A program made the translations under genes and the position numbers. A DNA stretch of 64,000 nucleotides. Source: Cavenderia fasciculata (Eukaryota; Evosea; Eumycetozoa; Acytosteliales; Cavenderiaceae). The notes under the pieces were generated by a model that was not told the DNA's origin, did no database searches, and saw nothing but the letters and a program-made list of their open reading frames with translations. Within the stretch, counting starts at the first letter, position 1. Each line of letters starts with the position of its first letter. Where the stretch lies: assembly GCF_000203815.1 (NCBI RefSeq), contig NW_004457737.1, forward strand, positions 1,178,001 through 1,242,000, given 5' to 3'. Below are positions 44,746 through 52,198 of the stretch, one piece after another.

Positions 44746-45885
44746 ATGTCGTTCCCATCGCTGTTAGGACCATCACTTGGTAGTGTGTCGTTGTTGGATG
44801 GAACTTTGTTTACACATAATGCAAGTCAAGCTTTCATGTTGATGAATGGTAATAAGAGTGGTGGTGGTGCTGGTGCTAGTACAGCTTCTGGTGGTGGTGC
44901 AGGTGCAGCAGCTGCGACGGGCAAAGTGGGAGACGTACACTTTGGTAACAACCACAGCTACGCATACTATGCCTGTCGACTCGGTGTCGAGGAAGAGTGG
45001 ATCGTCAGAGAAACTACTAGATTACATCAATCTATAGATCATGCTCTATCATCATCATCTACATTACTTGGATTCAATAGTAATCGTATAATTGGTGTAC
45101 ATAATAATAATAATAATCAAAATAATAGTAGTAACACAAACAAGAATAATAATAAAAAGAAAGGAGGAGTGGGAGGAATAGGTAGTCGATTTGGACAACA
45201 ACAAATTCAACCACAAGATTACTATCATGAAGATGATCATGAACAAGAACAAGAAGAAGAAGAAGAGGAGGAAGAATATGAAGAAGAAGAATATGAAGAT
45301 GAAAGTAATGATGAACCTACATCATCACCATCATTGGAAAGACAAATTGAAGATATGGATGAAGAGGAGGAAGAGGAGGAAGAGGAAGAGGAAGAAGAGG
45401 AATACCATGATATGGATCAATCAACAATCTCATTCAACCAAAGTAATAGTATTGGAGAGATTAGTAATGGTAGTAGATTAAGTAATAATAATCTATTATC
45501 CATTTTAGAGTTTACAACTAATAATAATAATAATAATAATAATAATAAGAGTTTACAACATGATGATGACCAACAACAACATGACATGTCATTATCGATG
45601 CAAATGGAAGAAAGTGTTCAAGATATGAATACTACCAATAACTCTGTCGATATGAGTGTGAATATGGACCAATCCAATGTTTCTCAACATATAGTAGATG
45701 AAGTTGAATACCAAGCACAACAACAACAACAACAACAACAAAGAATATTCTCATTTGGCAAACACGATCATGAACCAAATCATCATCATCAACAACATGA
45801 AGATGAAGAGGATGAAGAAGAGGAAGAAGAAGATGAAGAGGAGGAAGATGAATACGAATCGAATGATATGGATATATCAATGTAA
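44746..45885 (+). CDS. Acidic low-complexity protein
   Basis: Single exon, 379 residues, not recognised. Residues 1-105 are the only ordered-looking part: an Ala/Gly stretch, then VHFGNNHSYAYYACRLGVEEEW and IVRETTRLHQSIDHAL. The remainder is built of poly-Asn, long Asp/Glu runs (for example residues ~165-185 and ~205-225), and a His/Gln stretch, ending EYESNDMDISM. It is next to the CaaX array, and a fragment of its 3' half recurs at 47521-47690, which shows it was part of the duplicated block. Base composition is highly repetitive, so length variation between alleles is to be expected. Confidence 0.65.
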   Translation: MSFPSLLGPSLGSVSLLDGTLFTHNASQAFMLMNGNKSGGGAGASTASGGGAGAAAATGKVGDVHFGNNHSYAYYACRLGVEEEWIVRETTRLHQSIDHALSSSSTLLGFNSNRIIGVHNNNNNQNNSSNTNKNNNKKKGGVGGIGSRFGQQQIQPQDYYHEDDHEQEQEEEEEEEEYEEEEYEDESNDEPTSSPSLERQIEDMDEEEEEEEEEEEEEEYHDMDQSTISFNQSNSIGEISNGSRLSNNNLLSILEFTTNNNNNNNNNKSLQHDDDQQQHDMSLSMQMEESVQDMNTTNNSVDMSVNMDQSNVSQHIVDEVEYQAQQQQQQQQRIFSFGKHDHEPNHHHQQHEDEEDEEEEEEDEEEEDEYESNDMDISM

Positions 45886-46242
45886 ATACATGTAATAAAC
45901 TTAATTGTGAATTATAGTGTATATATACTTGTGTGAACCGACACCCATATTAATCGATTGGTAGATTGGTTGATTGATTGATTGAAATCCAATTTTAGTT
46001 TAGTTTTAGAAATATGTAATCTTGGATTATTCATACTGGTTTTCTGAAATCTTTTCATTGTGAGTGTCAATGACGTTCGTTTATTGATATTAACGGTCAG
46101 TCAGATGGTCGAATCTTTAACAAAGTGGCCGACACCAACTCGATTATCGACGACTATGACAGTCAAGACAAAATATAAATGTTGCTAGTTGGAATGATCC
46201 ATTTCATTCATTTCTGTTTAACAAATAAATATCATCAACATC
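45886..46242 (+). promoter_or_regulatory. Upstream block of CaaX gene A
   Basis: Starts after the acidic gene with a GATT repeat (45956-45984). It then has the conserved word GTGTCAATGA at 46064, followed by a TTTATTGATAT box, CGGTC, and near 46160 GACAGTCAAGACAAA followed by TATAAATGTTG. The same order is seen upstream of genes B, C and D, with the first word 172-200 nt before each ATG. No open frame crosses the block. Confidence 0.6.
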
Positions 46243-46523
46243 ATGACACTTTACGGTAATAATTTATTTATTACCCCTTTGCAAGGGAAAATAAGGAGGG
46301 ATGGATTGATGGAAGGACAACCAATTTTATTAATATAATTTATACTTTCTTTTCTTTTCTTCCCCATAATTATATAGACTCTACTGTATCTATTGGCAAG
46401 ATCAAGCCTTCAAACATTTCAAAGACAGCACCCCCCAAAAGAGGTATCTTCGGAGTGCCAGTTAATAGAAAACCAAAGATGCCAGGAGATAATGGAGGTG
46501 GATCAGACTGTAATATCATGTAA
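46243..46523 (+). CDS. CaaX micro-peptide gene A
   Basis: Two exons, 46243..46255 and 46378..46523, joined in phase 1, giving 52 residues. It starts MTLYDSTVSIGKIKPS, has a basic middle (PPKRGIFG, NRKPKMPG) and ends GGGSDCNIM. The last four residues are a CaaX box; X=Met is known to favour farnesylation. There is no signal peptide and no membrane helix, so if it reaches a membrane it does so by the lipid. The 122-nt intron is GT..AG and its acceptor is TATATAG. Part of a four-gene array with the same exon plan, N-terminus and CaaX ending, which is my main evidence that it is a real gene. Gene prediction programs would easily miss it because exon 1 codes for only four residues and one base. 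Confidence 0.75.
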
Positions 46524-46926
46524 TCAATTTCATTTCATGTCTTGGTAACCATCCAACCAACCACCTCACAAGGATTTGTTTTGTTTGGATCATTCAGGTC
46601 AATTTTAATAAAACTAGTTTGGGTCTATTGTAGATTGTACATACCAAATGTTTATATAATTAATAACTTTCAAATTTAACCCTACTATATCAATTTTACA
46701 TAACTTTATTGATTGATTGATTGATTGGAATTAGAAATATGTATTTGTGGGTGAGTGTCAATGAGTTTTGTATATTGATATTATCGGTCGGTACTCAAAT
46801 ATATACATTGACTCGGACTGTCATGTCAAGACAAAGTATAAATGTTGTTAGTTGGAACGATCGATTTCATTTCATTCCATTGTTCAACAATAATTTCATT
46901 CCTAAAATTAATAATTCATCATCATC
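46524..46926 (+). promoter_or_regulatory. Upstream block of CaaX gene B
   Basis: Conserved GTGTCAATGA at 46755, then TATTGATATTATCGGTCGG, and near 46824 a TGTCAAGACAAAGTATAAAT stretch. The GATT repeat (46709-46727) again precedes it. The word order matches the upstream block of gene A. Confidence 0.6.
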
Positions 46927-47183
46927 ATGACACTTTACCGTAACTATTTATTTATTTAAAAGATTTACCTTGAGAAGAGGGGAAAATAATTATTAATTTC
47001 TTTTCTTATTTTTTCTTTTAAATAGGTACAACTGTATCTATTGGCAATTCTGTAAAGAAGGTTCCAGCTCGTAAAGAATACTATGATAAAATTGTTGTTA
47101 ATCAATCAGGTAGTTCTCAAGAAACCCCAATGACCACAGCAAATACGTTTGGTGGAGAAGGAGATGACTGTATTATCATGTAA
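46927..47183 (+). CDS. CaaX micro-peptide gene B
   Basis: Two exons, 46927..46939 and 47026..47183, phase 1; 56 residues. Starts MTLYRTTVSIGNSVKKV and ends TFGGEGDDCIIM. The first intron base pattern differs at one codon base, so residue 5 is Arg where A and D have Asp. CIIM is a good farnesylation-type CaaX box (aliphatic a1 and a2). Its middle (RKEYYDKIVVNQSG) diverges from A, as expected for a fast-evolving mature or spacer region. Same exon plan and conserved ends as A and D. Confidence 0.75.
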
Positions 47184-47345
47184 TCAATTTAATGTCTTGA
47201 TAACCAACAGACCAAACAAACAACCATCCATCCATCATCCATCGACATCATAAATAATAATAATAATAATAATAAATTAATAATAATTGTACCAAATGAA
47301 ATTAATAACTATCTAAATTCCACTTTTATTATTAATAATAATTTT

Positions 47346-47500
47346 AATAATCATACAAAGAGGACAGTATGTTTAGATGGATCATTCATATTCAGTTACA
47401 ACACTCAAACAACCTCCTTGGTAAACGATCAACTCTAGTCAATGCAAAGGGGGTTTGAACAAGAGGAATCCTGTAGTCGTGTCTAGAAATGTAACATCCT
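47346..47500 (+). pseudogene. Scar copy of the 5' end of the SNM1 gene
   Basis: Duplicates 49242-49430, the leader and first codons of the SNM1 gene, with shared words AATAATCATACAAAGAGGA, ACACTCAAACAAC and a long match GGGGGTTTGAACAAGAGGAA followed by TCCTGTAGTCGTGTCTAGAAATGT. Relative to the intact gene it has lost about 50 nt and carries substitutions, so it no longer encodes a protein. It marks the end of one duplicated unit. Confidence 0.85.
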
Positions 47501-47520
47501 CATCCTCTTCCTCACAATAG

Positions 47521-47690
47521 ATACAACAACTGGATGATGATGATCAACAACAAAAGGAAGACAATGTTCAAGATATGAATACTCCCAACAACTCTTCGAT
47601 ATGAGTCAATGTTTATCAACATGAAGTAGATAAAGTTGAATACAGGGAATAACATGAAGATGAGGAAGAAGATGATGAATATCATCGGGT
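47521..47690 (+). pseudogene. Scar copy of the 3' part of the acidic gene
   Basis: Matches parts of 45551-45860 in the acidic gene: GTTCAAGATATGAATACT, CCAACAACTCT and GATATGAGT, then GAAGTAGATAAAGTTGAATAC and AACATGAAGATGAGGAAGAAGA. It is compressed by deletions relative to the source and has stops. It directly follows the SNM1 scar, an order that only a tandem duplication of the block between these two genes would produce. Confidence 0.8.
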
Positions 47691-47911
47691 ACTTCATTCT
47701 TCCCTGTTTATGTGTCAATGAGATTTGTTTATTGACATTATCGGTCTGTCGATTCTTTAACAAAGTGGCCGACTATGGTTTAACCCATACTTCGACTCGA
47801 TCATTAACGACTCTACCAGTCAAGACAAAGTATATAAGTTGCTGGTTGGAATACAATTAATTTCATTCCATTCCACTGTTCAACAAATAATTCAACATCA
47901 TCATCATCATC

Positions 47912-47926
47912 ATGACACTTTACGGT

Positions 47927-47967
<41 letters not shown>

Positions 47968-48237
47968 TAGATTTCCTTTGATTCAAGGAAATAGACAATC
48001 AATTTTATTAATTTAATTTATTTTTTTCTTTTCTTTTAATTACTTGATGCACACATTTATCAATATATAGAAACCTCTGTATCTATTGGTCAGATCAAGT
48101 TTTGAAGACTTTTTGATTCAAATTTAATTATTGCAACATATGATCCCGTACCAATTACATATAATAAACCAAAACCAAAACCAAAGACTACTGCAGATAT
48201 GTTTAAAGGAAATGGAAATGGTTGTAATTTAATGTAA
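47912..48237 (+). pseudogene. CaaX micro-peptide gene C, interrupted by a stop
   Basis: Same plan as its paralogues: exons 47912..47924 and 48071..48237, phase 1. Starts MTLYETSVSIGQIKF but has an in-frame TGA at codon 16 (48104-48106), after which the frame stays open to a good ending GNGNGCNLM. The 146-nt intron holds a long ATTT repeat (47930-47969). So the gene is broken by one substitution or a read error, or makes a 15-residue product; I treat it as a pseudogene. The remainder (TYDPVPITYNKPKPKPKTTADMFKGNG) resembles gene D (RYDPNANG, GDMFKGG), linking C and D. Confidence 0.7.
47930..47969 (+). repeat. (ATTT)n repeat in intron of gene C
   Basis: About ten ATTT/TTTA units in the intron. 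Shorter ATTT runs occupy the same place in the introns of A and B, so the repeat is ancestral and expanded here. Confidence 0.9.
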
Positions 48238-48695
48238 TCAATTTAAGTTTATTTCATTTCTTGACAACCAACTAACCAACCAAACCAAACCTCACAAAGT
48301 ATTCTACTCAACTGTAAAGTCAATTTTAATAAATGTATAATTGATAACTTTCTATAATACCCACATATTAATAGATTGATTGATTGATTGGTTGATTGGT
48401 TGATTGGTTGATTGATTGATTGATACAATATTAGTTTCAGAAATCTTGATAATAATCATCTGGACAACCCCACTCTGCACCTCATTCTTCCCTGTATGTT
48501 TGTGAGTGAGTGTCAATGAGTTTTGTTTATTGATATTATCGGTTGGCCATTTAATATATTTAGACAGTCTTGACAAAGGTGTAAATGTTGTTGTTTGGAT
48601 TACAAATCATTTGATTTCATTCAACTTGTTTAACAAATAAATACAATTTCATTCGAGTGCACTGCTCACCAAATTATTCAATCATCATCAACATC
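48238..48695 (+). promoter_or_regulatory. Upstream block of CaaX gene D
   Basis: A long GATT/GGTT repeat (48374-48424), then GTGTCAATGA at 48511, TTTATTGATATTATCGGTTG, and near 48568 a CTTGACAAAGGTGTAAATG word corresponding to the TATAAAT region of A and B. Confidence 0.6.
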
Positions 48696-48980
48696 ATGAC
48701 AGTTTACGGTAATTATTTACAGTTTCTTCCATACTAATCTGAGAAAATAGGATGGATGGATTGACGAAAGGACAACCAATTTTACTAAATGATTTAATTT
48801 ATTCTTCCCCATTATTAAATAGACACTACTGTATCTGTTGGCCAGATCAAGGCAACAAATCTTACAAAGCCATCAACGACAAGATACGATCCCAATGCCA
48901 ACGGTGCATTGAAAGATCTTCAAGCAAATACAGGAGATATGTTTAAAGGAGGAGATAAGACTTTTTGTAATATCTTGTAA
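48696..48980 (+). CDS. CaaX micro-peptide gene D
   Basis: Two exons, 48696..48708 and 48823..48980, phase 1; 56 residues. Starts MTVYDTTVSVGQIKATN and ends FKGGDKTFCNIL. The final Leu, instead of Met, would favour geranylgeranylation in known enzymes, so this copy may be modified differently from A and B. Middle part RYDPNANGALKDLQANTG. Frame intact. Confidence 0.75.
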
Positions 48981-49281
48981 TTGATTTCATTTCATATGTT
49001 GACAACCATCCAGCCAATCAACCATTCAACCAACCAACCAACCAACCTCACAAGTACAGTCCACTTGATTCTTTGTTTGGGTCATTAATTAAAGTCCATT
49101 TTAATAAATGACGAAATAATTGTTGATCTCTCATATAGTACATTTTAAGTATTACATATTAAATAAAATTCCACTAAATTTTACCTTTAGTTCAAAATTA
49201 TTTTATTTATTTGTAGAGTTTAATCGATTCACACAAAAGAGATAATAATCATACAAAGAGGATAATATGTTTAGATAGAAT
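48981..49281. other. Spacer between gene D and SNM1
   Basis: 301-nt spacer, AT-rich, with CCAACCAACCAACC runs after gene D, also seen after genes A and C. Its right end is the source of the SNM1 scar at 47346. No further CaaX gene recognised. Confidence 0.5.
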
Positions 49282-52198
49282 ATGAATGGTCATTCACAAC
49301 ACTCAAACAACTCCTTGAGTAAACATCGATCAAGCATCAACAACAACTCCTCTCAGAGTCAACAACAACAACGCAAAGGGGGTTTGAACAAGAGGAATCC
49401 TGTAGTCGTGTCTAGAAATGTTACCTCTCTAAAGAATGTGAGCACTCAACATACTACACTTGGATACAACCCAAAACAACTAGATGAAGATGATGATATC
49501 GATTTATTCATTGTCAGTAATCCTCCAGTAGATATGGACACGGATACGACTAGTACGACTACTACTACTACTACAACGAGTAGGAGTGCAAGTAAAAGTA
49601 ATGTTGTCACTGGTGGCGGTGGTGGTGATGATGATGATGATGATATAGGGGATTCAATTACAAATACAACTACGAATAAACAGAACCCTCGTATTCATCT
49701 TCCTCCTCTTCTTCCTCCTCCCCCAATAGATATGGATCAACTGACAACCGATACAACCACATCTACTACAACTACAACGACAACTACAACCAATAATAAT
49801 AATAATAACAATGATAGTAGAGACCATGGTGGTGGTGGTGGTGGTGATGGTATAACATTAGATTACAGTAATACTACAATCAATGATGATTTTGAATTTG
49901 ACTTTACCAACTTAAGTGATGATGAAGTAGACAATAACAACAATAATAATAATAATAATAATAACCAAATCAATTTTGATGATTATGAATTCGATGATGA
50001 TGATGATATATTTTCAACTAAACCAACTACGCCAACATCTACATCACCATCATCAAGTGGAAAAAAGACACCACAACCAAAGAAACCTGCAAGTAAAAGG
50101 GCAAGTTTACCAAAAAAGAAAGATCCACCTCCTGTTAAAATACCCCCAAGTTTTAAAGTTATTCATGGTACTAAATTCCTAGTTGATGGATTTCAATACA
50201 AGTCAAAGGAATATACCCATTATTTCTTGTATGTACTAAAAAAAAAAAGAATATATTAATATTATATTTATTATATTGTATTATATATTAATTTCTTTTT
50301 TTATTTTTTTAATTTAGAACACATTTTCATTCTGATCATTATGTTGGATTGACAAAGACATTTAGTTTTGGAAATGTTTATTGTACAGAAGAAACTGGTA
50401 AATTGGTTCATAGTAAACTTGGAGTTCAACCAAATTTTATAAAGGCAATGCCTTGGAATCGATTCATCACCATTGAAGGGGTAAGGGTGGCGATGCTAGA
50501 TGCCAATCATTGTCCGGGATCGGCAATGATATTGTTTCATGTAAATAACGAGTACAGTCTTCATACTGGTGACTTTAGGTATCACCACCGGATGAAGGAA
50601 TACCCACTCTTGAAGGATATCGCCATCTCAAGACTCTATCTAGACAATACATTTTGTGATCCAACCTATGTATTCCCACCACAACAAGAAGTGATTCAAG
50701 AGGTGGTTAAAATCATTCAAAAGGAAAACGATGGACGCACTGTATTCTTGTTTGGAACTTATACCATTGGCAAGGAACGTATCTTGATGGAGGTGTCCAA
50801 GAATCAGAGGAAAAAGATATGTGTCAGTCAGGACAAGAAACAAATCATCGCGTGTCTTGATCTCGACCAAACCATGTTTACCACCGACGAGACCATCACA
50901 CCATTCCACGCTGTACCAATGGGTACACTTCGATTCGATTCTCTCCGAGGTCGTCTAGAGGCTCTGAAACCAAGGTATGGACGTGTCGTTGCTTTTCGAC
51001 CAACTGGATGGACACAATCAAAGAAATCAATCACTCACCAGCGATATGGGGCAGTCACCCTATACAGTGTTGCCTACTCTGAGCACAGTAGTTATAATGA
51101 ACTTTTACAATGTATCGATCATTTCAGACCAACTGAAATTATTCCAACTGTTGATTGCTCAACTCCAAATCATGTTTCTGTAAGTAAAAATAGATAGATT
51201 TAATTAGAAAGATTCTTATTGTTTTTATTACTATATAGAGAATATTATCACATTTTAAACCAATTTATGAAAAGAAGAAACAAACAACCATGATGTCATT
51301 CTTTTCAACTACCAAATCATTGGCAACTAGTTTATTTGGTGGAAATGTGAATAATAATAATAATCAACAACAACAACAACAACAAGAAGATAAAATCACC
51401 AAACCATGTCAAAGTACTTTATCTCTTTTTGATGAATTATTGATGGATTCCCTTGAAGACGATATTTTTGCGTCTCCAACTCCGTCACCAACCAAAGCAA
51501 CCAAAACAACAACACCAATGAAACCATCGTCACAGTCTGCTACTACTACTACCACTACTCCATCTACACCAAAACCAATTCAATTACCTCCACCAACAAC
51601 AACCTCTACAACCTCGACAACATCTACCACCTCCACACAAAAAAAACCTTTAAATAACAAACAACAACCTTGTACCGTTCCCAAACAATCTACTCCAAAA
51701 ACAACAACAACAACAAATAACTCTATAGTTTCACAAAACACAAGCGACCAAGATGCATTTGACTTTTTTGACCCTGTTTTCCTTTCTCAGCAAAGATGGA
51801 TTGAAAGGTCAATCTTGCACCAACAACAACAACCCCAGACAAATTCATCACAATCCCAGGCATTACAAATTTTTAAACCTCCTTCTTCATCATCATCATC
51901 CCAAACAAAGACAACAAAGCAGACATTGGAATCCAAGAAAAATAAAACACCACCCCAACCATCCAAGAGCCACTCTTCAACCAAAAAGATATCTCCGGCT
52001 ACTACTACGACAAAGAAACAAAAGCTATCAAAACCAAACTCAACCTCTGTAGCTACCACCAAAGATAATAATAATAATAATAATAACAATAATAATAATA
52101 ATAATGGACAATCATTCATTACGTCATTCTTTCAAAAATGTTCCAATACTACTTCATCAACCATCCAATCCTTTTTTTCAACAACGAATAAACAATAA
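49282..52198 (+). CDS. SNM1/PSO2-type DNA crosslink repair nuclease
   Basis: Metallo-beta-lactamase/beta-CASP 5' exonuclease of the SNM1 group, which acts in interstrand crosslink repair. Three exons, 49282..50228, 50318..51179 and 51239..52198; 922 residues. The first ~290 residues are Asn/Asp/Thr-rich. The catalytic part starts at [12 protein letters not shown]. Motif II is THFHSDH (residues 317-323, across the first intron), followed by [32 protein letters not shown], and the SNM1-specific [17 protein letters not shown]. The DRMBL domain closes with [20 protein letters not shown] and IIPTVDC. The C-terminal ~300 residues are low complexity with several PIP-box-like motifs (see findings). 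It resembles SNM1A/PSO2 more than Artemis because of the THFHSDH[11 protein letters not shown] layout. Confidence 0.9.
52109..52132 (+). other. PIP-box motif near the C-terminus of SNM1
   Basis: Codons for QSFITSFF at residues 894-901, a full match to the PCNA-binding consensus Q-x-x-(I/L/M)-x-x-(F/Y)-(F/Y). A second full match, QTTMMSFF, is at residues 618-625 (51281-51304). Confidence 0.6.

Follow-up and report, generated by a model that had tools for sequence, protein, structure and literature searches.

A 64,000-nt stretch of the Cavenderia fasciculata genome (RefSeq assembly GCF_000203815.1; contig NW_004457737.1, positions 1,178,001 to 1,242,000; hereafter the window) carries on its + strand a tiny two-exon gene repeated four times in tandem; the frames of all four copies end in a CaaX box, the C-terminal signal for prenylation. 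From the first promoter through the last stop codon, the array occupies positions 46060–48980. The genes belong to a small and scattered family, which is mostly CaaX-ended and built like the hssA/sigN developmental genes. In all four copies, exon 1 is the 13-nt sequence ATGACA(C/G)TTTAC(C/G), followed by a GTAA donor; the introns of copies 1–4 (122, 86, 146, and 114 nt, respectively) end with TAG acceptors, and the exons are joined in phase 1. The N-termini read MTLY, MTLY, MTLY, and MTVY, the motif following the join is TVSIG, TVSIG, SVSIG, and TVSVG, and the C-termini are CNIM, CIIM, CNLM, and CNIL, each directly before the stop codon. An earlier note on this DNA had described the four copies, the 13-nt exon, the phase-1 join, and both conserved ends, and all of these are found where it placed them. 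It had also counted four genes of 52–56 residues, which holds for the three intact copies 1, 2, and 4 (52, 56, and 56 residues, ending in CNIM, CIIM, and CNIL) and not for copy 3, where an in-frame TGA had been missed.

The TGA of copy 3 is codon 16, and the frame is open afterwards to the CNLM–TAA end at 48237, giving 59 codons with the TGA included. A scripted search for alternative splicing that reaches CNLM in frame returned three solutions with a second intron and two with an alternative acceptor; these encode proteins of 13–23 residues, and no solution gives 52–56 residues. Rescue by other splicing was rejected on this ground, and copy 3 is probably a pseudogene or a sequence error.

The copies are duplicates and not chance likenesses: DNA matches of at least 100 bases between them are 68–79% identical (best E, 1e-40), and shorter matches reach up to 89%. 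The degree of conservation differs along the gene. With matches expressed over the longer length, 65–88% of the bases agree in the first 26 nt of exon 2 and 72–94% in its last 18 nt, compared with 49–60% in the middle of exon 2 (z, 0.0–5.5 against 60 shuffles), 50–75% in the introns (z, 4.8–12.8), 61–69% in 70 nt of the 3′ flank, and 53–66% in the promoter stretch. The middle is thus conserved no better than non-coding DNA, and these copy-to-copy identities agree with the original description of a strongly different middle between two preserved ends.

Family members elsewhere in the genome

The search for further members covered this one genome, using exon-1 patterns, an exon-2-start pattern, and one exon-2 protein. 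Exon patterns were used because the 56-residue peptide of copy 4 matched only copy 4 itself in a genome search. None of the pattern queries held a C-terminus; the protein query alone did, and it added no new locus. Reversed-pattern controls gave 12, 0, 2, and 6 matches for exon 1 against 35, 7, 16, and 28 in the forward direction, and 12 against 25 for the exon-2 start. Nine of the latter 25 places are family loci, the remaining 16 standing outside the family count. That count also excludes C18:1430627, C21:1044114, and C21:2961869 among the 35 places of the first exon-1 pattern, where most of the others were assessed only with a scripted S-I-G-like filter; one-mismatch exon-1 places are mostly outside it as well, and the family counts are lower bounds.

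At least 10 loci, including the four copies in the window, possess both exon 1 and the exon-2 start, and all of these 10 except copy 3 have open frames. Seven of the nine open-frame loci end in C-(N/I)-I-(M/L/Q) and contain a single Cys, located in the box. A Cys four residues from the end, an aliphatic residue at a2, and an allowed X are accordingly present in all three intact window copies and in 7/9 open-frame loci genome-wide. Because the patterns searched for left the C-terminus out of account, this recurrence can be taken as evidence for a family trait, limited by paralogy and by the closeness of some members: the first ~25 exon-2 residues are common to C1:2249424, C1:2274741, and C2:31917. 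The positions are collected in Table 1.

Table 1. Positions of the array, its accompanying features, and related loci; positions with a prefix (C1, C2, C14) lie elsewhere in the genome, all others are those of the window
Feature	Position	Strand	Details
Copy 1 exon 1	46243..46255	+	13 nt, MTLY + 1 nt; donor GTAA
Copy 1 exon 2 to stop	46378..46523	+	52-residue protein, end CNIM
Copy 2 exon 1	46927..46939	+	13 nt
Copy 2 exon 2 to stop	47026..47183	+	56-residue protein, end CIIM
Copy 3 exon 1	47912..47924	+	13 nt
Copy 3 exon 2	48071..48237	+	in-frame TGA 48103–48105, frame open afterwards to CNLM + TAA
Copy 4 exon 1	48696..48708	+	13 nt
Copy 4 exon 2 to stop	48823..48980	+	56-residue protein, end CNIL
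Promoter element ACAAAGTGGCCGAC	46120..46133	+	123 nt upstream of copy 1
Promoter element ACAAAGTGGCCGAC	47760..47773	+	152 nt upstream of copy 3
Degenerate fragment between copies 2 and 3	47345..47498	+	duplicate of 49243–49427; 74.7% identity, E 1.7e-31
Degenerate fragment between copies 2 and 3	47551..47643	+	duplicate of upstream-gene part 45601–45711; 75.7%, E 5e-19
CaaX gene	C1:1276744		53 residues, CIIL
CaaX gene	C1:2249424		56 residues, CNIL
CaaX gene	C1:2274741		52 residues, CIIQ, start MPLF
CaaX gene	C2:253238		47 residues, CIIL
Non-CaaX open-frame locus	C2:31917		54 residues, head present
Non-CaaX open-frame locus	C14:984013		65 residues, head present
Remnants with family-type promoter and exon 1, without working exon 2	C1:1276260 and C14:1410114		
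Exon-1-like sequence	C14:983727		no recognisable exon 2

Probable relationship to the hssA/sigN genes

According to published accounts, Dictyostelium discoideum has nearly 100 genes for small proteins of the hssA type (PMC2257962, PMC6198379); of 96 sigN-related genes, 89 have a single intron and a first coding exon of 13 nt (PMC2257962), and the first exon of hssA genes is 13 bp (PMC6198379). The CaaX genes have the same plan, which is no independent proof of kinship, as members outside the window were partly sought by the exon pattern. The present genome contains 12 matches to PF05710 (‘Coiled’, the hssA type), 10 of them above the cut-off, and the five that were modelled (L002–L006) are 13-nt-exon genes. 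Beside PF05710 genes at C1:981–984 kb lie two non-CaaX genes with the starts MTLYESLKSIGNPK and MTLFASLKSIGNPK, hereafter the bridge genes. In this cluster (C1:981000–984300; L004, L005, and L051), the PF05710 genes are mixed with the two, which encode 67 and 69 residues, respectively. Other very small genes that share this plan but lack a CaaX box start with MTLFAALSQIS, MAIFETLSNLGN, and MSLFASLSKIG. The last of these starts was read at one place on C13 (L067; 54 residues, end WGKW), where five identical 22-base exon-1 matches (C13:233186, 237789, 241789, 249743, and 251895) fall within ~19 kb, possibly marking a further tandem family of tiny genes built with a 13-nt exon.

In hhalign profile comparisons, the bridge genes align on both sides: with the CaaX set at an E of 5.4e-6 (probability, 86) and with the PF05710 genes at an E of 1.8e-7 (probability, 94). 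Against all eight hssA/sigN-like proteins the CaaX set scores 25.1 (E, 1.7e-4), which is reached by 0/60 column shuffles (best, 10.2); permutation with the same eight proteins gives 0/5000 for residues 2–14 and 7/5000 for residues 5–14. One CaaX gene elsewhere starts with MALYDSTTSIGNPR, close to the bridge genes. The match to the other three relatives is weak (E, 0.019). As the direct match to PF05710 proteins is also weak (see below), the N-terminal link rests on the bridge genes. The Ser/Gly/Cys-rich body is absent from the CaaX proteins, which have one Cys each. By gene plan and N-terminal sequence, the CaaX genes are likely, but not proven, to be a divergent offshoot of the hssA/sigN class; the alternative to descent of exon 2 from hssA is that another sequence captured the promoter and exon 1. 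Membership of PF05710 itself was rejected, none of the seven CaaX proteins matching it at E up to 10.

The earlier note knew of no description of such a family in amoebae. Its 13-nt-exon plan is in fact published for hssA/sigN genes (PMC2257962, PMC6198379), and what stands of that claim is that no paper was found to join the plan to a CaaX box. In PMC2257962, the words CaaX, prenyl, and farnesyl do not occur. The wider search covered titles and abstract openings of the top-listed papers in the open-licence PMC literature, which leaves the absence unproven; its single match for hssA with CaaX concerned the kinase Plk4 in centriole duplication.

Predicted lipid tether and conserved head

We consider it somewhat probable that these genes are a divergent hssA/2C/7E/sigN offshoot, in which the 13-nt exon and the N-terminal peptide were kept and the rest became a variable linker, mostly CaaX-ended, to give a prenylated, membrane-tethered product. 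The mRNA would be spliced to encode a protein of 47–56 residues, and its single Cys would receive a farnesyl group where X is M or Q and a geranylgeranyl group where X is L, following the rules that relate the X residue to the type of prenyl group. After removal of aaX and methylation of the C-terminal end, the lipid would tether the peptide, presumably to the inner face of a membrane. The head, M-x-(L/V)-(Y/F)-x-(T/S)-T-x-S-(I/V), would there contact a putative partner, the Ser/Gly/Cys-rich body having been replaced by a short, variable, and probably disordered linker; expression would be expected in development. As expected of a eukaryote, the genome has loci that match the families of prenyltransferase beta (three, PF00432) and ICMT (one, over the cut-off). 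A structure model of the exon-2 part of copy 4, built with copies 1 and 2 as the alignment, has a mean predicted local distance difference test score (pLDDT) of 53 and a predicted template modelling score (pTM) of 0.14, which is consistent with disorder and no proof of it. Because the head is common to all members and to the bridge genes, it is likely the functional part.

The coding sequences also bear on another possibility, which we regard as rather doubtful: the transcripts would be the main active products, or the genes would form a nearly neutral, expanding tandem family, and the proteins would matter little. It accords with the broken copy 3, the two remnants, the two loci without a box, and a middle unconstrained beyond non-coding DNA, and also with the lack of a developmental phenotype on deletion of 13 sigN genes and in six single knockouts (PMC2257962, PMC8554618). 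At the two ends (11 + 4 codons), however, the proportions of nonsynonymous (pN) and synonymous (pS) differences, pooled over 21 non-independent pairs of seven genes, are 0.186 and 0.426 (pN/pS, 0.44). Within the 11 N-terminal codons, nine third positions are variable, as opposed to six first and four second positions; judged by these codons, selection on the protein is visible for the head. Moreover, mounds were disrupted by antibodies to group 2 SigN peptides, which points to a protein role for sigN, with the caution on specificity that the authors themselves express (PMC2257962).

Several observations weigh against the proposed prenylated hssA/sigN offshoot. As to the link with hssA, the CaaX set matches three PF05710 proteins poorly (E, 0.036; probability, 1.4), although the score of 14.2 is reached by 0/40 shuffles (best, 12.6), and permutation against PF05710 proteins gives 14/5000 for residues 2–14 and 66/5000 for residues 5–14. 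The bridge genes themselves match PF05710 only below the cut-off (E, 0.0036 and 0.0071), and their likeness is partly by choice, as they were picked by the exon-1 pattern and an S-I-G-like filter. Two of the eight relatives, the MAIFETLSNLGN and MSLFASLSKIG proteins, have no PF05710 match, and the seven CaaX proteins match no Pfam family at all at E up to 10. As to the lipid, ICMT-family matches occur also in 6 of 14 control genomes, bacterial or archaeal, and the box alone gives no clear sign of selection on the protein, with one first, two second, and two third positions variable in the last four codons (third, 2/4, no more than second, 2/4). A basic run near the box is present in one member only (KKKK, six residues before the box at C2:253238; in C1:1276744, KKKK lies 13 residues before it), and none of the seven CaaX proteins has a second Cys; for these reasons, tethering by a single lipid may be weak. 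Finally, the open-frame loci C2:31917 and C14:984013 lack a CaaX end. The CaaX ending claimed for the array therefore characterizes most of the family, with four more intact CaaX genes elsewhere, and not all of it; homologues without the box, named beforehand as the finding that would tell against the proposal, do exist in part, as these two paralogues.

Origin of the array and comparison with known systems

The promoter element ACAAAGTGGCCGAC has four exact matches in the genome, each 123–152 nt 5′ of a family-type exon 1: two in the window (copies 1 and 3) and one each at the remnant C1:1276260 and at the non-CaaX locus C14:984013. A one-mismatch copy precedes C1:1276744, being one of eight one-mismatch places in the genome (the backward control gives five matches at up to one mismatch). 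No match at up to one mismatch lies before copies 2 and 4, and the element is not seen at C1:2249424, C1:2274741, or either C2 gene; it marks only part of the family. Between copies 2 and 3 are two degenerate fragments, the source of the first (49243–49427) being the 5′ portion of the downstream gene plus its upstream edge. In order, the region runs from the upstream gene through copies 1 and 2 to the downstream-gene fragment, and then through the upstream-gene fragment and copies 3 and 4 to the downstream gene. Mainly because of this order, we infer that the array arose by tandem duplication of a two-copy block. The promoter stretches give no clean pairing (66% identity for both 1–3 and 2–3, 63% for 1–2, and 62% for 2–4), and the best single match between copies, from exon 1 through the 3′ flank, joins copies 1 and 4; sequence exchange between copies is therefore likely. 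The downstream gene (49282–51197) presumably encodes an SNM1/Pso2-type metallo-β-lactamase DNA repair nuclease, to judge from its motifs.

Fungal a-factor precursors are, like the present proteins, tiny, multicopy, and CaaX-ended, with no signal peptide by eye, and in them the mature peptide is formed by the residues next to the box. The genes could by analogy encode secreted signals, whose precursor would be farnesylated, cut, and exported by an ATP-binding cassette (ABC) transporter as in yeast, with specificity provided by the middle, which is no better conserved than non-coding DNA. We hold this to be unlikely: the conserved part is the N-terminus, which the non-CaaX bridge genes have in common, whereas the residues beside the box, whose retention would be expected in an a-factor-like signal, vary among the seven members. 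The comparison, drawn already in the earlier note, is thus weak. Titles and abstract openings of the top-listed literature mention no dictyostelid signal of this type. Still more remote is the idea that the products are lineage-specific prenylated peptides from hssA/sigN-type genes, in which the fast-changing middle would confer individual or strain specificity in developmental or mating-related signalling or recognition between cells.

With G-protein gamma subunits (which we take to be PF00631), the proteins have only small size and the CaaX end in common. The absence of Pfam matches stands against such an identity, as does the copy 4 model, whose low overall confidence extends to its one helix of 13 residues, located in the variable part. 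Gamma-like subunits are hence hardly credible, and the identity was rejected; that no gamma-type helix pattern is recognisable had been remarked before and is in line with the present result.

We therefore favour, on the pattern of sequence conservation, an intracellular, probably lipid-tethered short peptide with a conserved head, for which the hssA/2C/7E/sigN genes offer the closest comparison. Genes of this family are developmental, with expression mostly in prestalk or cup cells. In cup cells, some hssA-type genes reach extremely high expression (PMC6198379). If an offshoot indeed kept the N-terminal peptide and exchanged the body for a CaaX anchor, this would suggest that the peptide is a portable functional part. 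The two groups are alike in the 13-nt exon 1, one short phase-1 intron, clustering, and tiny proteins, and probably also in an MT-start peptide, which can be aligned end to end through the bridge genes. They differ in that proteins of the sigN group have 87–89 residues and are Ser/Gly/Cys-rich (PMC2257962), whereas the CaaX genes encode 47–56 residues with one Cys, and in that the PF05710 genes of this genome end in GCGCH, GCGSCH, or HSGCH, where their putative offshoot mostly ends in CaaX.

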